Assembly (NCBI GenBank): GCA_946409635.1
Contig: CAMJXD010000006.1
Span: forward strand, 1 to 64,000
Length of the DNA stretch: 64,000 nucleotides
Reading direction: 5' to 3'
From: an uncultured Prevotellaceae bacterium
Lineage (GTDB): Bacteria; Bacteroidota; Bacteroidia; Bacteroidales; Muribaculaceae
Each line of letters starts with the position of its first letter. Positions within the stretch are counted from its first letter, which is position 1. Both the position numbers and the translations under genes were made by a program. Shown piece after piece: positions 1 to 60,129 of this stretch. Under the pieces are notes generated by a model. That model was not told the DNA's origin. It made no database searches and saw only the letters and a program-made list of their open reading frames with translations.

Positions 1-397
1 GGGGCTGACTGGCTTTGACAGCGTGTAGAAGTGGTAAGCAAGCATGCAGAGCGATAATGGCAAGGCTCTTAAATCTCAGTCATTGACACAATTAAATGGC
101 GAAAACAACTACGCTCTCGCTGCCTAACCGAAGAACAGTAAGTTCGGCTTTATCGCTGCCCAAGGGGCAGTGACGAGACATCACCCAACTGCCCTCGCGC
201 CGAGGCGGGTTGAACCGGTGGTGCAGGAATATCGGCGATAGGACAAGGCAAGCCTCGGGCCGCGTCCGAAATTTAGAGGATAAGCCACCGGTTGGTCGTC
301 TTGGGCCTGCCAGCGGTCGAAAACCAAGCCAAGACTAAGCATGTAGAAACCTTATTAGTTCCACGTTTGGACGAGGGTTCAAACCCCTCCAGCTCCA
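1..397 (+). ncRNA. ssrA: transfer-messenger RNA (tmRNA)
   Basis: tmRNA rescues stalled ribosomes and tags the unfinished protein for proteolysis. The 5' GGGGCTG (1-7) pairs with CAGCTCC (390-396) to form the acceptor stem, and a T-arm with loop TTCAAAC lies at about 374-389. The tag reading frame is at 98-127: resume codon GGC, then GENNYALAA and a TAA stop, the usual Bacteroidales tag. The encoded 3' end after discriminator A397 is CAA, so the CCA tail must be added after transcription. The window opens exactly at the mature 5' end, so the promoter is not visible. Confidence 0.97.
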
Positions 398-479
398 CAA
401 ATCACGAGTAACCATCTGATAATCAGATGATTACTCGTTGATTTTGTTGAAGCACTTGGCTCCAAATGATATTTACTGA
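386..479 (+). repeat. left copy of ssrA 3'-end repeat (attL-like)
   Basis: Positions 386-401, CCTCCAGCTCCACAAA, are identical to 5278-5293. Beyond them both copies hold a terminator hairpin and a recognisably related tail (TTGGCTC..AATGATATT). This pattern, a gene 3' end regenerated at one border and left as a fragment at the other, is expected when an element integrates site-specifically into tmRNA. The copy inside intact ssrA is this one. Confidence 0.75.
404..447 (+). terminator. terminator of ssrA (left copy)
   Basis: A long stem, CGAGTAAC-CATCTGA paired with TCAGATG-A-TTACTCG, closes on a TAA loop and is followed by a T-rich tract. It directly follows the tmRNA. A diverged counterpart lies at 5303-5335. 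Confidence 0.8.
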
Positions 480-539
480 TAATATATGATGCTTAATGAT
501 AAAGAATTACCTACCTTTCTCTCGCATTGTGTGATGGCT

Positions 540-595
540 TGGAGCATCTAACTCCACTCATCATATCTCGCCTTGTTTTGGAGCTCTTAGCTCCA
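540..595. repeat. paired short inverted repeats in the island leader
   Basis: Two small hairpins, TGGAG..CTCCA (540-556) and TGGAGCT-ctt-AGCTCCA (579-595), lie between ssrA and the first island gene. They resemble the TTGGCTCC motif of the att-like tail at about 457-464, so they may be decayed copies of it. No gene was found in 401-774 apart from these, the terminator and the promoter region. Confidence 0.4.
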
Positions 596-672
596 TATGC
601 TATAGCTAACATCAAAAAGTGCATATTTGAAATGACGATGTTGGGGGAGTATAAATGACACAAACCCCAACT

Positions 673-719
673 GAGTTTTGGCTAAAACGAAGATTTTTCA
701 CGAGTTTTAGCTAAAACTC
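673..719. promoter_or_regulatory. two operator-like palindromes upstream of the ATPase gene
   Basis: GAGTTTTAGCTAAAACTC (702-719) is a perfect 18-bp palindrome. An imperfect copy, GAGTTTTGGCTAAAACGA, lies at 673-690, with the starts 29 bp apart. The perfect copy ends one base before the -33 TTG, so a bound protein would cover the promoter. Binding by a regulator, or by the encoded ATPase itself, is inference. Confidence 0.5.
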
Positions 720-720
720 A

Positions 721-750
721 TTGTTAATTTAAATAATAATAATACCTTTG
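721..750 (+). promoter_or_regulatory. promoter of the island genes
   Basis: A -33 TTG (721-723) lies 19 bp from TACCTTTG (743-750), which fits TAnnTTTG. Transcription should start near 757, only about 18 nt before the ATG at 775, so the leader is very short. Confidence 0.75.
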
Positions 751-774
751 CATCAACCAAATTCATTTTTCGTT

Positions 775-2199
775 ATGGATAAGCTTATAGGCAGAGAAAA
801 AGAGATACGACTGTTGACGGAATACACATCTTCAGACCATCCTGAATTTGTTGCCATTTATGGTCGGCGCCGAGTGGGAAAAACATTCTTGGTAAATCAT
901 CTGTTCCATGGTAAAATGGCTTTTGCTATGACTGGGGTACTTGACGGAACTTCAGAGGAACAAATGGAGGCGTTTATTGATGCACTCCAAGAATATAGCA
1001 AGAAAACCGTCAAACGTCCTGAAAACTGGATGGAAGCATTTAGGTTATTGAAGGAGTATCTGAAACGAAAGGTCACATTGAAACGACGTTGCATCGTATT
1101 CCTGGATGAGCTCCCTTCAATGGATACACAACGCTCAGGTTTTATACGGGCATTAGGTTACTTTTGGAACTCATGGGCATCGATGCAAGACAACCTCACA
1201 TTAATTGTTTGCGGCAGTGCCACTTCTTGGATGATCAAAAATGTTGTAAATGATAAGGGCGGCCTCCATGACCGCATCACTCACGAAATACATCTGCATC
1301 CATTCACACTTCATGAAACCGAAACATATCTAAAAAGTCGCAATTTCAAGTGGGAGCGTCTTTCTGTTTTACAGGCATACATGGCTCTTGGCGGAGTGCC
1401 CTATTATTTGAGCCTTTTGCATCATAATGAGAGTTTTTCAACAAATATTGACCGGCTTTTCTTTGGAGAAGAGGAAGAATTGCGCAGGGAATACAAACGA
1501 TTGTATTCAACATTGTTCCAATCGCCTGAGTCTTACATGTCTATCGTCAACGCACTGTCAAAGGTGAAACATGGTATGACCCGCAAAGAGTTAAGTTCTG
1601 CTCTTGGAACTGCCCCAAATGGGACGCTCAGCCAGAAGTTAGAAGACTTGGTTAATTGTGATATAATCCGAAAGTACGTGGTGAGGGAGAAACGCATCAG
1701 TAATCGTTCCGCTATCTACCAACTCACGGATTTCTACTCGCAGTTTTATCTGACATTCGTTCCGCGTGCAGAGGCCGAAACCAACTATTGGACGAATCAT
1801 ATCGGTACACCTGAAATCAACACATGGTTGGGGCTATGTTTTGAGAGGATTTGCATGACCCATGTAACACAAATCAAGAAGGCCCTGGGCATCGATCGGA
1901 TTTCGACTAAATTCTATTCGTGGCAAAGTAAGCAATCGCAACCGAAAGCTCAAATAGACATGATTCTTGATCGCGCAGACGGAATCATCAACCTTTGCGA
2001 AATGAAATACAGCGAAGCTGAGTTTTCCATGAACAACACCGAAACGATCAAATTACGCAATCGAGCCGCAGCCTTTAAACAGGAAACAGGTGCGAAAGGA
2101 GCATTATGGCCCACGTTGATAACAACCTATGGTTTGAAGGACGGAATGCATTCATCCACATTCGTTGCTACGCTGACCATGGATGATTTGTTCAAGTAG
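775..2199 (+). CDS. AAA+ ATPase with C-terminal DUF234 nuclease-like domain
   Basis: This belongs to the archaeal-type ATPase family (ATPase_2 with DUF234), whose biological role is poorly known and which is often carried in variable regions. Residues 30-37 are the Walker A motif GRRRVGKT; a Walker B-like segment ending FLDELP lies near residue 110. A winged-helix-like middle section follows. The C-terminus holds QIDMILDR followed by LCEMKYS, the spaced acidic and E-x-K pattern of PD-(D/E)xK folds (about 392-412). The ATG at 775 is chosen because an in-frame upstream TTG overlaps the -7 box. The gene lies 13 bp before the TOTE-type gene and probably shares its transcript. It is richer in AT than the genes beyond 9 kb, which suggests acquisition. 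Confidence 0.85.
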   Translation: MDKLIGREKEIRLLTEYTSSDHPEFVAIYGRRRVGKTFLVNHLFHGKMAFAMTGVLDGTSEEQMEAFIDALQEYSKKTVKRPENWMEAFRLLKEYLKRKVTLKRRCIVFLDELPSMDTQRSGFIRALGYFWNSWASMQDNLTLIVCGSATSWMIKNVVNDKGGLHDRITHEIHLHPFTLHETETYLKSRNFKWERLSVLQAYMALGGVPYYLSLLHHNESFSTNIDRLFFGEEEELRREYKRLYSTLFQSPESYMSIVNALSKVKHGMTRKELSSALGTAPNGTLSQKLEDLVNCDIIRKYVVREKRISNRSAIYQLTDFYSQFYLTFVPRAEAETNYWTNHIGTPEINTWLGLCFERICMTHVTQIKKALGIDRISTKFYSWQSKQSQPKAQIDMILDRADGIINLCEMKYSEAEFSMNNTETIKLRNRAAAFKQETGAKGALWPTLITTYGLKDGMHSSTFVATLTMDDLFK

Positions 2200-2212
2200 T
2201 TGTCTCCAATGA

Positions 2213-5089
2213 ATGTCTTTCATGGATAATTCGGTATCATATCAGGAACTCAAGCGCGAACGGGATACTCTTCAGCTACGAATAAAGCAACTTGAAGATG
2301 AGATTTCGTCACTTCGTGAGCGATTGACGCAGTATGAGCCACAACGGTCAGACCTCGAAAACTCCCCTATTCCTCCAGCAATGACCCGATTGTCGCTGGA
2401 CGAAAAGGTTTCCCTGTTTCGTAGTTTGTTCCGTGGTCGGGAAGATGTATTTGCCCGGCGATGGCAGAACCGTTCAAATGGCAAAAGTGGATATCAACCA
2501 GTCTGTGAAAACGAGTGGAACCCGCAACTGTGCAACAAGCGACAATACAAATGCAGTGAATGCCCTAACCGGCAATTCTCTAGGCTCACTGACAATGACA
2601 TCTATCGTCACCTTGAAGGGAAAGCGCCTGATTGCCGTGATGTGATTGGGTTGTATGCCATCAATGAAGATAATACCTGCCATCTGCTTTGTGCCGACTT
2701 CGATGACAAGAACTGCGAGCATGGCTATAAAGGAGATGTTTTGACATTTGTCAATGTCTGCAAAAGTTGGAATATCCCCAGCTATGTAGAACGATCGCGG
2801 TCTGGAAATGGAGCACATGTCTGGATATTTTTTGATGCTCCGATTTCGGCTGCCAAAGCACGACGGTTAGGGTATGCTATTCTAACTGAAGCCACAAATC
2901 GTGACGGTTGTATTTCGTTCAGATCATATGACCGTTTCTTTCCAAACCAGGATTATCTGCCACAAGGAGGCCTAGGCAACCTCGTGGCTCTGCCGTTACA
3001 AGGGCAAGCAAGAAAACAAGGAAACAGCGTATTTGTGAACGAACATTTTGAGCCATATCCCGACCAGTGGGAATACTTGCTAAATATTAAGAGACTGACT
3101 GAGGCTGATGTTGACATCTTGCTTCACTCAAAGGCTAGTGCCCAGCCCCTCGGCGCACTTGCCACAACCAGCGAGAACAATCCTTGGGAAGCTCCCGAGG
3201 CACCAACGATTGATAAAAGAGATTTTGCAGCCATGCTGGCCATCGTAAAAGCGAACATGCTTTACTTACCTATTGGGGCATTATCGGCAAAGATTATCAA
3301 TCACTTCAAGCGCATCGCCTCATTCAGGAATCCAGAATTTTATAGCCGACAGGCTATGCGTCTAACGACCTATAACATTCCTCGCATCATCTCTTGCGCT
3401 GAGATCATTGATGACTACCTGGCATTACCTCGTGGTTGTGAAGATGCTGTCATCCAATTCCTTGAAGAGAATGAGATGAACTATGAAATCATCGACAAAA
3501 CCAATCATGGGAAACCCATTCATGTCACTTTCACTGAAGAGTTGCGCAGCGACCAAGCAAAAGCAGTTTCACTATTAAGCGAGAATACAAATGGCGTGTT
3601 GTCAGCGACGACGGCTTTTGGCAAGACTGTTGCTGCAATAGGACTCATTGCAAGACACGGTGTTAATACGCTAATTCTAACGCATACTAAAGCTCTCCTT
3701 GAACAATGGAAAAAAGAATTAGGCAAGTTTCTATCAATCGAATACATACCTGAAGAAACCAAACCCAAACGTGGCAAGCCAAAGAAATCTTCCCCTATTG
3801 GCACACTCAGTTCTACTGGCAACTCATTGCATGGCATCATTGATGTCGCCTTTATCCAGTCTTGCATAACCAATGGAGAGGTAAAACCGTTTGTCAAAGA
3901 CTATGGCATGGTGATTGTCGATGAGTGTCATCATGTGTCTGCGGTAAATTTCGAACACGTTTTGAAAGAAACAAATGCACATCGGGTCTATGGCCTGACC
4001 GCGACTCCAATAAGGAAAGACGGACATCAGCCCATCATATTCATGCAATGCGGCCCGATTAGATACACGGCTGACGCCAAGCATCAGATGCAAATGCAGT
4101 CTTTTAGCCGATTGCTTGTACCTCGTTTCACACATTACCACGATGTTATTGACAAGAATTTGCCCTACATGCAAATCATTCACCATCTTGCCGAGGATGA
4201 ATACCGTAACCGCCTCATTGTAGATGACGTTTGCTCAGCATTGAAAGAAGGTCGAAGCCCTTTAGTACTTTCTAGTCTAACTACACACGTTGTTTTACTA
4301 GCTAATCTTCTAGAGCCTCATTGCGCAAATGTCATCGTACTGATAGGTTCAAAGAGCGCCAAAGAGAAGAGGTTGAAAATGGAACGATTAAATCAACTCT
4401 CAGCCAATGACCCTCTCGTCATCATAGCAACAGGAAAGTACATCGGCGAGGGATTTGACTGTCCCAGGCTCGACACATTGTTTCTCGCTCTGCCAGTTTC
4501 ATGGAAAGGTATCATCGCGCAATATGCAGGTCGCCTTCATCGCGATCACGTCGGGAAACAAGAGGTGCGCATTTATGACTATATCGACTTTAATATTCCT
4601 GTATGTGAAGCTATGTATCGACGTAGGCTTAAAGGCTATGCATCCATCGGATACTCGCTCATGCCAGATGGCCTATTCGCCGATGTTCAAGAACCAGAAA
4701 ACCAGATTTTCAATGGCTCCAATTTCCTAACTCGTTACATTTCATCTCTTGGATCAGCCAAAAGTTCCATCATAATCATTTGTCCCAAAGTAAAGTTTAG
4801 CCACCGCTCATTAGTCGCGACACGACTTGCCGACCTCATTCCTAAAGGCATCAAGATTGCAGTAGCTACCAGAGAGAAAAACGAGCATACCGAATACCTG
4901 GAAATTCATGGCATTAAGGTTATCTTTCAAGATAATCTATCACTATCCTGCACCATTATCGATCGATCTCGCATGTGGTACGGCAACGTCAATCCCTTGG
5001 GTTATAACAAACCCGATAACCACATCATCACTTTCCATCATCCAGAATTAGCAACAAGCATCATTGACTCGTTAACAACAAATCATTAA
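2213..5089 (+). CDS. TOTE-type primase-helicase-PLD conflict-system protein
   Basis: This 958-residue multidomain protein carries an archaeo-eukaryotic primase (AEP) domain of the family associated with TOTE conflict systems, fused to a superfamily II helicase. In order: an N-terminal coiled coil (about 10-45); a cysteine cluster (CNKRQYKCSEC, about 107-117); the AEP core with ADFDD (metal-binding D162 and D164) and SGNGAHVWIFF (H202); a helicase with TTAFGKT (about 465-471), DECHH (about 569) and motif VI QYAGRLHRD (about 770); and a C-terminal PLD-like domain (about 845-955). In the PLD part, the position that normally reads HxK before IID is SLS, so the visible HKD motif is degenerate. Such proteins are thought to act in defence or replication conflict; the exact action here is inferred. 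A second ATG at 2222 is possible. Confidence 0.85.
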   Translation: MSFMDNSVSYQELKRERDTLQLRIKQLEDEISSLRERLTQYEPQRSDLENSPIPPAMTRLSLDEKVSLFRSLFRGREDVFARRWQNRSNGKSGYQPVCENEWNPQLCNKRQYKCSECPNRQFSRLTDNDIYRHLEGKAPDCRDVIGLYAINEDNTCHLLCADFDDKNCEHGYKGDVLTFVNVCKSWNIPSYVERSRSGNGAHVWIFFDAPISAAKARRLGYAILTEATNRDGCISFRSYDRFFPNQDYLPQGGLGNLVALPLQGQARKQGNSVFVNEHFEPYPDQWEYLLNIKRLTEADVDILLHSKASAQPLGALATTSENNPWEAPEAPTIDKRDFAAMLAIVKANMLYLPIGALSAKIINHFKRIASFRNPEFYSRQAMRLTTYNIPRIISCAEIIDDYLALPRGCEDAVIQFLEENEMNYEIIDKTNHGKPIHVTFTEELRSDQAKAVSLLSENTNGVLSATTAFGKTVAAIGLIARHGVNTLILTHTKALLEQWKKELGKFLSIEYIPEETKPKRGKPKKSSPIGTLSSTGNSLHGIIDVAFIQSCITNGEVKPFVKDYGMVIVDECHHVSAVNFEHVLKETNAHRVYGLTATPIRKDGHQPIIFMQCGPIRYTADAKHQMQMQSFSRLLVPRFTHYHDVIDKNLPYMQIIHHLAEDEYRNRLIVDDVCSALKEGRSPLVLSSLTTHVVLLANLLEPHCANVIVLIGSKSAKEKRLKMERLNQLSANDPLVIIATGKYIGEGFDCPRLDTLFLALPVSWKGIIAQYAGRLHRDHVGKQEVRIYDYIDFNIPVCEAMYRRRLKGYASIGYSLMPDGLFADVQEPENQIFNGSNFLTRYISSLGSAKSSIIIICPKVKFSHRSLVATRLADLIPKGIKIAVATREKNEHTEYLEIHGIKVIFQDNLSLSCTIIDRSRMWYGNVNPLGYNKPDNHIITFHHPELATSIIDSLTTNH

Positions 5090-5120
5090 CCTTTTTTGTG
5101 GCATTAAGGCTGATATTGAA

Positions 5121-5149
5121 GGGGGAATTGAGTCGTTTTTTATTCCCCC
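5121..5149 (+). terminator. terminator after the TOTE gene
   Basis: GGGGGAAT (5121-5128) pairs with ATTCCCCC (5142-5149) around a 13-nt T-rich loop, with GTTTTG after it. It lies 31 bp beyond the stop codon and would end the two-gene transcript. Confidence 0.6.
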
Positions 5150-5167
5150 GTTTTGCGATATAACAGA

Positions 5168-5256
5168 CTAATCGAGTGATGTGACAAATTAATCATCAGT
5201 CTGCAATTGATTGATAACCAAAAATTTTCGTTAGTTTATATCATCACATGATTAGT
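5168..5256. repeat. imperfect inverted arms next to the right att-like repeat
   Basis: ACTAATCGAGTGATGTGA (5168-5185) is roughly the inverse of TCATCACATGATTAGT (5241-5256). They sit just inside the island border. Such arms can be integrase or excisionase binding sites, but no recombinase gene is nearby, so this is only suggestive. Nothing that looks coding was found between 5090 and 5397. Confidence 0.3.
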
Positions 5257-5277
5257 GTGTAATATCATTCGATAAAA

Positions 5278-5374
5278 CCTCCAGCTCCACAAAATCAAAC
5301 GAGTAATCACCTAAACGCCAGGTAATTACTCTTTTACTTTATTGAGCATTTGGCTCTTAATGATATTCATTGAG
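5278..5374 (+). repeat. right copy of ssrA 3'-end repeat (attR-like) with terminator
   Basis: Positions 5278-5293 repeat the last bases of tmRNA exactly (CCTCCAGCTCCACAAA) without the rest of the gene. A terminator hairpin follows (GAGTAAT-c-ACCT paired with AGGT-a-ATTACTC, about 5303-5335), and then a tail like that after the left copy. It is best read as the displaced original 3' end of ssrA and marks the right border of the island. Confidence 0.75.
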
Positions 5375-5397
5375 AAAAAGCGCAAATGACGCAAAGT

Positions 5398-5520
5398 TTA
5401 ATCGGGGTCGATGATGCTGACGGCAACGGTCCCGTCACGCTTGCAGATTTCCAGTTCTACTCCCTGCTTGAGCGCATCTGCAATGCTGCAAGCCAGGTCA
5501 TACAATAATTGTGTTTTCAT
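5398..5520 (-). CDS. small hypothetical protein (40 aa)
   Basis: This short open frame encodes MKTQLLYDLACSIADALK followed by an acidic tail ending SIIDPD. An amphipathic helix followed by a short beta-like segment (KRDGTVAVSII) is plausible for a small folded protein, but I do not recognise a family. The start at 5520 is preferred; 5529 is also possible. A longer upstream extension reads like non-coding AT-rich sequence. It lies just outside the island border, downstream of no obvious promoter. It may be spurious. Confidence 0.35.
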   Translation of the reverse strand: MKTQLLYDLACSIADALKQGVELEICKRDGTVAVSIIDPD

Positions 5521-59990: not shown

Positions 59991-60020
59991 TTGCCAGTTT
60001 AGGAAAAAGCAGTACCTTTG
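59991..60020 (+). promoter_or_regulatory. promoter of the SRP RNA
   Basis: TTG (59991-59993), 19 bp, TACCTTTG (60013-60020). The predicted start, about 60026, matches the first base of the terminal stem of the RNA. Confidence 0.8.
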
Positions 60021-60025
60021 CAGCC

Positions 60026-60129
60026 GGGTAAGTCCTACACGGCCAGCTCCCTCCCAATCCCCCAGGTCTTGACCGAAGCAAGGGTAACGAGGTTGTAGCG
60101 GCGCGCTGTAGCTCACTTGCCCTTTTTTT
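60026..60129 (+). ncRNA. ffs: signal recognition particle RNA (small type)
   Basis: The 5' GGGTAAGT pairs with the 3' ACTTGCCC, followed by a T7 terminator. The apical part reads CCAGG, ten bases, AGCAAGGGTAACG, which lines up with the conserved SRP helix 8 (CCAGG..AGCAACGGTA) in sequence and spacing. The loop itself (TCTTGACCGA) lacks the usual GGAA tetraloop. An alternative name is the Bacteroidales-1 RNA; I rate SRP as more likely. Confidence 0.75.

Follow-up and report, generated by a model that had tools for sequence, protein, structure and literature searches.

Genomic islands at the tmRNA gene, ssrA, have been described in Dehalococcoides and in Pseudomonas. The tandem ssrA islands of Dehalococcoides comprise 16 with and 15 without an integration module, a six-gene unit described together with the serine recombinase DsiB and a crossover in the T-loop, and the available part of that report has its authors considering cis-mobilizable elements and accretion for them (PMC3146451). 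The Pseudomonas tmRNA islands I23, I44 and I55 lie directly downstream of tmRNA with short direct repeats and carry putative phage-defence cargo and, in the excerpted account, no transfer genes; each has its own tyrosine integrase and AlpA, their excision and transduction have been demonstrated, and the transducing agent is a jumbo phage (PMC12595487). CIMEs are described, in the sections of the source consulted, as keeping att sites in the absence of integration and transfer genes and as accreting with other islands (PMC5704250). A published island-finding method looks for a target regenerated at one end and a fragment of it at the other, and its available description requires an integrase gene, with tandems accepted only if each island has its own. 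As such finders ask for one integrase per island, integrase-less islands would be passed over. The open-access literature searched yielded no report of ssrA islands in Bacteroidales that are tandem or integrase-less.

The window, that is the whole 64,000-nucleotide stretch analysed here from an uncultured Prevotellaceae bacterium (genome G000, contig C6), begins with such an integrase-less island. It is bordered by an intact ssrA on the left and by a fragment of the gene's 3′ end on the right, as a site-specific tmRNA island is, and lacks the integrase of its own that such an island carries. With the Pseudomonas islands it shares the location, the short direct repeats, the candidate defence cargo and the lack of transfer genes, and with CIMEs the flanking att-like sites without integration genes, the accretion and, by Pfam, the absence of transfer genes; unlike CIMEs as portrayed in PMC5704250, the window family bears no sign of decay from an integrase-bearing ancestor. 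The closest precedent is the tandem ssrA islands of Dehalococcoides, and the window family is a variant of that kind. It differs in its tyrosine integrases, in a right end with four phased motifs and in integrase-less islands being the clear majority of those delimited. A serine recombinase of the DsiB type on the array contigs was considered and rejected: in the 16 genomes searched, PF00239 matches nothing on these contigs, and in 6 of them it matches elsewhere.

The island and its boundaries

The features of the island are as follows (window coordinates, strand, description).
1-398, +, ssrA (tmRNA), the target gene, regenerated at the island's left end (ARAGORN; Rfam RF00023)
386-401, +, left core copy, the ssrA 3′ end (exact repeat of 5278-5293)
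399-519, +, left end, version B (left-end profile, 116 bits, this copy being a seed)
775-2199, +, AAA+ ATPase with DUF234-like end, PDC-S27 profile (Pfam; PADLOC PDLC04984, 638 bits; motifs)
2213-5089, +, primase (AEP-TOTE domain)-helicase with degenerate PLD-like end (Pfam AEP-TOTE, 330.9 bits, ResIII, DEAD; motifs)
5121-5154, +, terminator-like hairpin GGGGGAAT..ATTCCCCC and T run, a conserved part of the right end (sequence; right-end alignment)
5157-5173, +, putative arm motif 1 (motif scan)
5178-5194, +, putative arm motif 2, 21 bp from motif 1 (motif scan)
5229-5245, -, putative arm motif 3, inverted (motif scan)
5250-5266, -, putative arm motif 4, inverted and spaced 21 bp from motif 3 (motif scan)
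5278-5293, +, right core copy; CATTCGATAAAA stands before it, as also in the sister islands
5294-5408, +, left end of a second island, truncated (left-end profile, 75 bits over 5278-5408, this copy itself being one of the 16 seeds)

Rfam (RF00023) places the tmRNA at 1-400 and ARAGORN at 1-398. Its end coincides with a core, CCTCCAGCTCCACAAA, that occurs in the whole assembly of 2,572,824 bases only at 386 and 5278, allowing one mismatch. The initial annotation described this core as the last 16 bases of tmRNA; the exact repeat stands, with the 16-mer redefined as the last 13-15 tmRNA bases plus 1-3 beyond. It had also reported a diverged repeat of some 80 further bases, called terminator and tail. 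Local alignment of 371-500 with 5261-5400 extends over about 105 columns with a score of 52, whereas none of 2000 first-order Markov resamplings exceeds 21, so that a chance repeat was rejected; the best place outside 5201-5460, on both strands of the window from 601, scores 22. The recurrence is thus real, while the recurring sequence is an element-type left end and not a chromosomal tail. A left end of this type after 5293 suggests that a second, truncated island follows; no further right end was found on the window contig with the right-end model.

Within the left end, a hairpin at 405-437 is followed by T-rich sequence. Since a hairpin stands directly after the core in left ends, insertion would give ssrA a new terminator, and the hairpin at 405-437 is the presumed replacement. 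Left ends come in two versions, A and B, forming mosaics in which either is combined with either cargo: version B is at ssrA in the window, version A is found in most ssrA-proximal left ends and internally in G006, and one left end of G049 has B and then A. Core recombination alone does not explain these mosaics. Another hairpin, ACCCCAAAAGTT..AACTTTTGGGG, follows version-B left ends at a constant distance in G007, twice in G025, in G049 and in a remnant of G019, and could be an insertion-sequence end. In G039 (L103) and G048 (L127) the core recurs about 104 bp behind ssrA with no gene between, as a very short duplication or a scar. The Bacteroidales small SRP RNA lies elsewhere in the window, at 60019-60126 (RF04183, 100.8 bits).

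The window genome is an 84% complete assembly whose window contig starts at the first base of ssrA, and the genomes compared, with the exception of the single-contig G060, are drafts in which contigs frequently end near ssrA. In several relatives, such as G028 and G032, ssrA lies at or a few hundred bases from a contig end. Upstream flanks are hidden as a result.

A two-gene cargo and its possible function

As initially annotated, two genes alone fill the interval between the core copies, with open reading frames at 748-2199 and 2213-5089. The first probably starts at the ATG at 775, because the PADLOC PDC-S27 profile (PDLC04984, 638.2 bits) covers residues 10-482 of the frame. Its earlier naming as an AAA+/DUF234 ATPase is borne out by Pfam matches to ATPase_2 and AAA_14, with DUF234 below threshold, and the protein has Walker A, Walker B and D...ExK motifs. 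The primase-helicase gene begins 13 bases past the ATPase gene. Both are, as had been observed, more AT-rich than their flanks, with GC contents of 0.432 for the ATPase gene and 0.448 for the primase-helicase gene versus 0.501, 0.567, 0.618 and 0.597 in the next genes downstream and 0.551 in the window.

The primase-helicase also matches the PADLOC profile of the CRISPR-associated PrimPol (285.5 bits). Its motifs DFDD, TAFGKT and DEC, taken like the H.K motif of PLD in their usual meanings, are kept in all 35 nearly full-length relatives. The PLD-like end has no Pfam match, and H.K is missing from it in the 18 of the 35 relatives for which variants are listed, so that an active PLD nuclease was rejected. 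A TOTE conflict system consists of TPR, OB and TBP proteins with an effector (name expansion from PMC12458937), and this identity was likewise discarded: neither island gene has a TPR, OB or TBP match in Pfam, though the AEP-TOTE domain is present. From the former designation as a TOTE-type primase-helicase-PLD gene, the AEP-TOTE primase domain is therefore retained, the conflict system is dropped and the PLD end is degenerate and without H.K. Neither gene matches a relaxase or transfer protein in Pfam.

The gene directly upstream of relatives of the second protein is PDC-S27-like at 13 of 65 loci and PDC-S01-like at 7 (>100 bits), and is unrelated at many of the others. PDC-S27 is described as a family proposed on computational grounds to act in defence and common in archaea; most candidates of this sort are reported to await validation (PMC12988326). 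The ATPase, with its nuclease-like motif, and the primase-helicase, both in one operon, most likely form a defence or genome-conflict module, a defence role being plausible from the PADLOC candidate profile. Of the 101 genomes of the genus, 77 contain relatives of the ATPase, with scoring limited to 15 in each genome; most of these relatives are 40-55% identical and, as far as seen, do not lie at ssrA. In Bacteroides acidifaciens and Prevotella sp. 885 (L264 5927-9362, L251 5900-9371), a primase-helicase relative ends about 210 bp upstream of ssrA, on the opposite side from the island.

The same pair in related genomes

Full-length matches to the second protein in the 101 genomes are 87-92% identical in six others (G009, G058, G082, G025, G037 and G068), 66-67% in G006, G091 and G062, and 56% in G077. 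In G006 the gene is at ssrA behind a different ATPase (AAA_14/DUF4143, PDC-S01). The close pair stands directly behind ssrA in G025, G037, G082 and G068, and in G058 it is the second island, behind one of 13 kb; the G009 contig begins inside the pair. The proposed search for the pair beside tmRNA thus found it there, and all five close copies (86-94% DNA identity) with ssrA on their contig follow either ssrA itself or another island at ssrA; the pair was not seen in a different, conserved context lacking the ssrA repeat. The right end is present in all six close copies with that part assembled. As only these six closest of the 65 loci have it, the wider family of the second protein says little about mobility.

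DNA identity to the window was compared for the two genes and one core marker, a 774-aa protein that is presumably BamA-like.
G025: pair 91.4%, marker 78.0%
G037: pair 92.7%, marker 77.1%
G058: pair 94.2%, marker 76.2%
G082: pair 92.8%, marker 77.2%
G068: pair 86.3%, marker 79.2%
At 86.3-94.2% for the pair versus 76.2-79.2% for this single marker, the identities indicate that the pair has spread between species, and the order of the two is reversed at both extremes (G058 and G068). The noncoding left ends of the window genome and G058 are 95% identical, and upstream of ssrA four other carriers are 76-83% identical over 197-545 nt.

Conserved right ends behind differing cargo

The roughly 190 bp before the right core, with the terminator, four phased 17-bp motifs and the ssrA core, are shared with other species, where they follow unrelated cargo. 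Across 14 islands with differing cargo, the right ends can be aligned along some 200 positions and have the terminator-like hairpin, the repeated motifs and the core in common. Each of the 11 type-1 right ends has all four motifs, a direct pair and an inverted pair, whereas resampled sequences average 0.05-0.2 and never exceed 3; the presence of the motifs is partly built in, because the motif matrix was seeded from type-1 right ends, while their spacing and order are not. Spacing within each pair is 21 or 32 bp, approximately two or three helical turns, even where 11 bp are inserted. The three type-2 right ends have three weaker motifs.

A right-end model built from sequence alone matches 37 of the 101 genomes at E<=0.01, many weakly, and the strong ones in any one genome tend to lie on a single contig and point the same way, with two contigs in G006 and G072. 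In G014 and G019 the matching contigs are not those with ssrA, and these matches, which have no recognisable core, are read as remnants. In a family sample of 297 genomes from 30 genera, the right end is found in 12 at E<=1e-6, all of the window's genus. Shortly before several right ends with differing cargo (L088, L126, L134, L171, L092, L177) there is an ORF of about 121 aa overlapped by an antisense ORF of about 171 aa; the two copies scanned have no Pfam match, and these ORFs are possibly part of the mobile backbone.

Island arrays and the variety of cargo

Counting islands with a core copy (<=2 mismatches) or end-profile match on both sides, 22 are delimited: four in G058, three in G006, two each in G025 and G018, and one each in G000, G037, G082, G007, G026, G068, G052, G049, G059, G088 and G089. 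Of these, 18 are on an ssrA-bearing contig. Those off the ssrA contig are two of G006 and those of G049 and G059, the last with a weak second boundary, and that of G089 is placed by T-arm context. Excluded were G032, whose second boundary has no recognisable core; stretches open on one side (the first of G049, G002, G081, the third of G025, the second of G037 and of G052, G009, G035, G054, G072 and G057, together with left-end-only loci in G017, G020, G041 and G044); remnants in G014, G019 and G086; and the core duplications of about 104 bp in G039 and G048. Islands are stacked in arrays, with four behind ssrA within 61 kb in G058 and several also in G025, G006, G018 and G049. Such rows of similar blocks with differing cargo suggest that an externally supplied enzyme can move them.

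The cargo of G058 includes a locus for polysaccharide utilisation, comprising GH97 and DUF6377 genes and others that are SusC-, SusD- and SusE/F-like, and G007 and G026 have genes of nearly the same sizes, a comparison of size alone. G025 carries GH9 and an epimerase-like protein; G052, imelysin, a di-haem oxidoreductase and cytochrome assembly genes; and G018, a protein of 3262 aa with laminin-G domains as well as BspA repeats, beside a PDC-S27-like ATPase. G037 encodes McrBC in its second stretch, as does G049 close to its integrases. Among islands with an integrase, G088 holds caspase-TPR and DUF6088 genes, and G002 SusC/SusD, thioredoxin-like and oxidoreductase genes. PADLOC gave no match for ten cargo proteins from the islands of G058, G025, G052 and G018, and matches for three of ten other cargo proteins. 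With cargo ranging over sugar-use, cytochrome, surface and restriction genes, defence is one cargo among several, and the idea of a defence-only hot spot was set aside, as several islands hold metabolic or surface genes.

Empty sites in relatives

An ssrA followed directly by the type of terminator that ends arrays is present in 6 of the 101 genomes, one of which (G052) is itself an island carrier. In G091, the sequence to the right of the first island of G018 is joined four to five bases past the core (82% identity, 1798 nt). This G018 island is integrase-less and its ATPase is 90% like that of the window. The proposed check for empty sites thus succeeded for a sister island, while a full empty site for the pair itself was not found, its nearest case being G097, which matches the right flank of G009 for 90 nt (94% identity) and that of G002 for 103 nt (91%), diverging from each beyond that. 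Right flanks are common to some islands, such as the pair island of G082 and the integrase island of G088, whose flanks are 79% identical from 137 and 265 bases on.

Integrases of sister islands

The absence of an integrase from the island, as originally described, extends to the whole window contig, as all four PF00589 matches of the window genome are on other contigs. Across the 31 genomes in which PF00589 was sought, one of the 22 delimited islands has a match (G088). Matches also occur in stretches delimited on the right only, in G049 (two genes), G002 and G081. None of these three stretches has ssrA on its contig, so they are assigned to ssrA by their core and right end. The integrases nearest the right end in these four islands form one clade of 453-484 aa and are 65-73% identical; SAM-like and arm-binding domains are matched by integrases of sister islands. 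That of G049 adjoins a right end of the window's type (184 bits), and the right ends of G088, G002 and G081 are weakly similar to the window's (24, 20 and 14 bits). A second tyrosine recombinase beside the G049 clade integrase (L174 11849-13222) is distantly similar to it.

Further clade members are found on contig C8 of the window genome (68% identical to that of G049), C17 of G018 and C30 of G025, the first two beside a right end of like layout with another core. The C8 integrase lies at L192 1205-2563 next to the core CGCTCCATAAAGCGCTATGCTCCACAA, and was rejected as a resident of the ssrA core because of that difference. G037 (88% complete) has two PF00589 matches in total, by rank presumably XerC and XerD.

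Possible modes of mobilization

Two boundary cores, a conserved right end, tandem stacking, an empty site in a sister and no integrase or detectable remnant inside characterize the island. The initial reading, that a small cargo island occupies the tmRNA site and was either mobilized in trans or deprived of its integrase, is supported by the relatives, through conserved ends with swapped cargo, stacking, the sister's empty site and an integrase clade on other islands. The island is probably a non-autonomous integrative element at the ssrA 3′ end, recombined by an integrase in trans or from a neighbouring island; the unique double core, the 14 aligned right ends, the phased motifs, the arrays, the sister's empty site, the integrase clade, the lack of remnants and the high identity of the pair and of the left end between species all argue for this. 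A tyrosine integrase of the 453-484-aa clade would bind the four motifs as arm sites and recombine the ssrA core with the island core, leading to excision and insertion, so that the island could move in trans or jointly with a neighbouring island, its left end supplying a hairpin terminator behind ssrA on insertion. Against this reading, the clade integrase of the window genome adjoins another core, its 84% complete assembly contains no integrase with the window's right-end type, and G088 alone among the four integrase islands shares its contig with ssrA, its right end being weakly similar to the window's (24 bits); the pair itself yielded no full empty site, and core recombination does not by itself account for the mosaic left ends. 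A broader version is tentative and somewhat doubtful: a trans-acting cassette system at ssrA in which an integrase clade on a few islands serves a larger population of integrase-less cassettes. Each cassette would retain only a new terminator for ssrA at its left end and an attP half-site with four arms at its right end, and its cargo could be anything between a defence pair and an entire sugar-utilisation locus.

The island could instead be a decayed cis-mobilizable element that lost its own integrase and is now fixed or leaves only with an adjacent integrase-bearing island. This is the standing explanation for such islands in the available text of PMC3146451 and PMC5704250, and it agrees with the existence of tandem arrays and with the integrase stretch of G049 adjoining an integrase-less island. 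We consider it unlikely, as tblastn with 25 integrases (E<=0.01) detected no remnant in the integrase-less array sequences, and the pair is the first and sole island behind ssrA in G082 and G068 and the second in G058, on contigs free of integrases.

Homologous recombination could also exchange islands between strains, with ssrA and the shared ends as homology and no present site-specific recombinase. The right ends offer about 190 bp of homology, and left-end versions A and B combined with either cargo would be expected from such exchange. It is nonetheless improbable, given boundaries at the core, insertion into an occupied array leaving one core per island, an empty site joined within four to five bases of the core, and arm-like motifs that keep helical phase. 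Integron-like cassettes, whose folded right end would be recombined as single-stranded DNA by an integron-type integrase, recall the nested inverted repeats, a fold better than 200 shuffles (z -3.7) and the single right end per island in one orientation, but are very improbable, as no integrase lies beside ssrA in the window (no PF00589 on C6), sister-island integrases match SAM-like and arm-binding domains, helical phasing speaks for double-stranded protein sites and the terminator makes up part of the fold.

If mobilization in trans is correct, a shared enzyme would move much of the variation behind ssrA in the genus, both the polysaccharide loci and the modules with a candidate role in defence, and such cassettes could be found simply by using their conserved right end as a tag. 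The islands would then offer a testable case of passenger genes spreading without their own recombinase among gut Bacteroidales.
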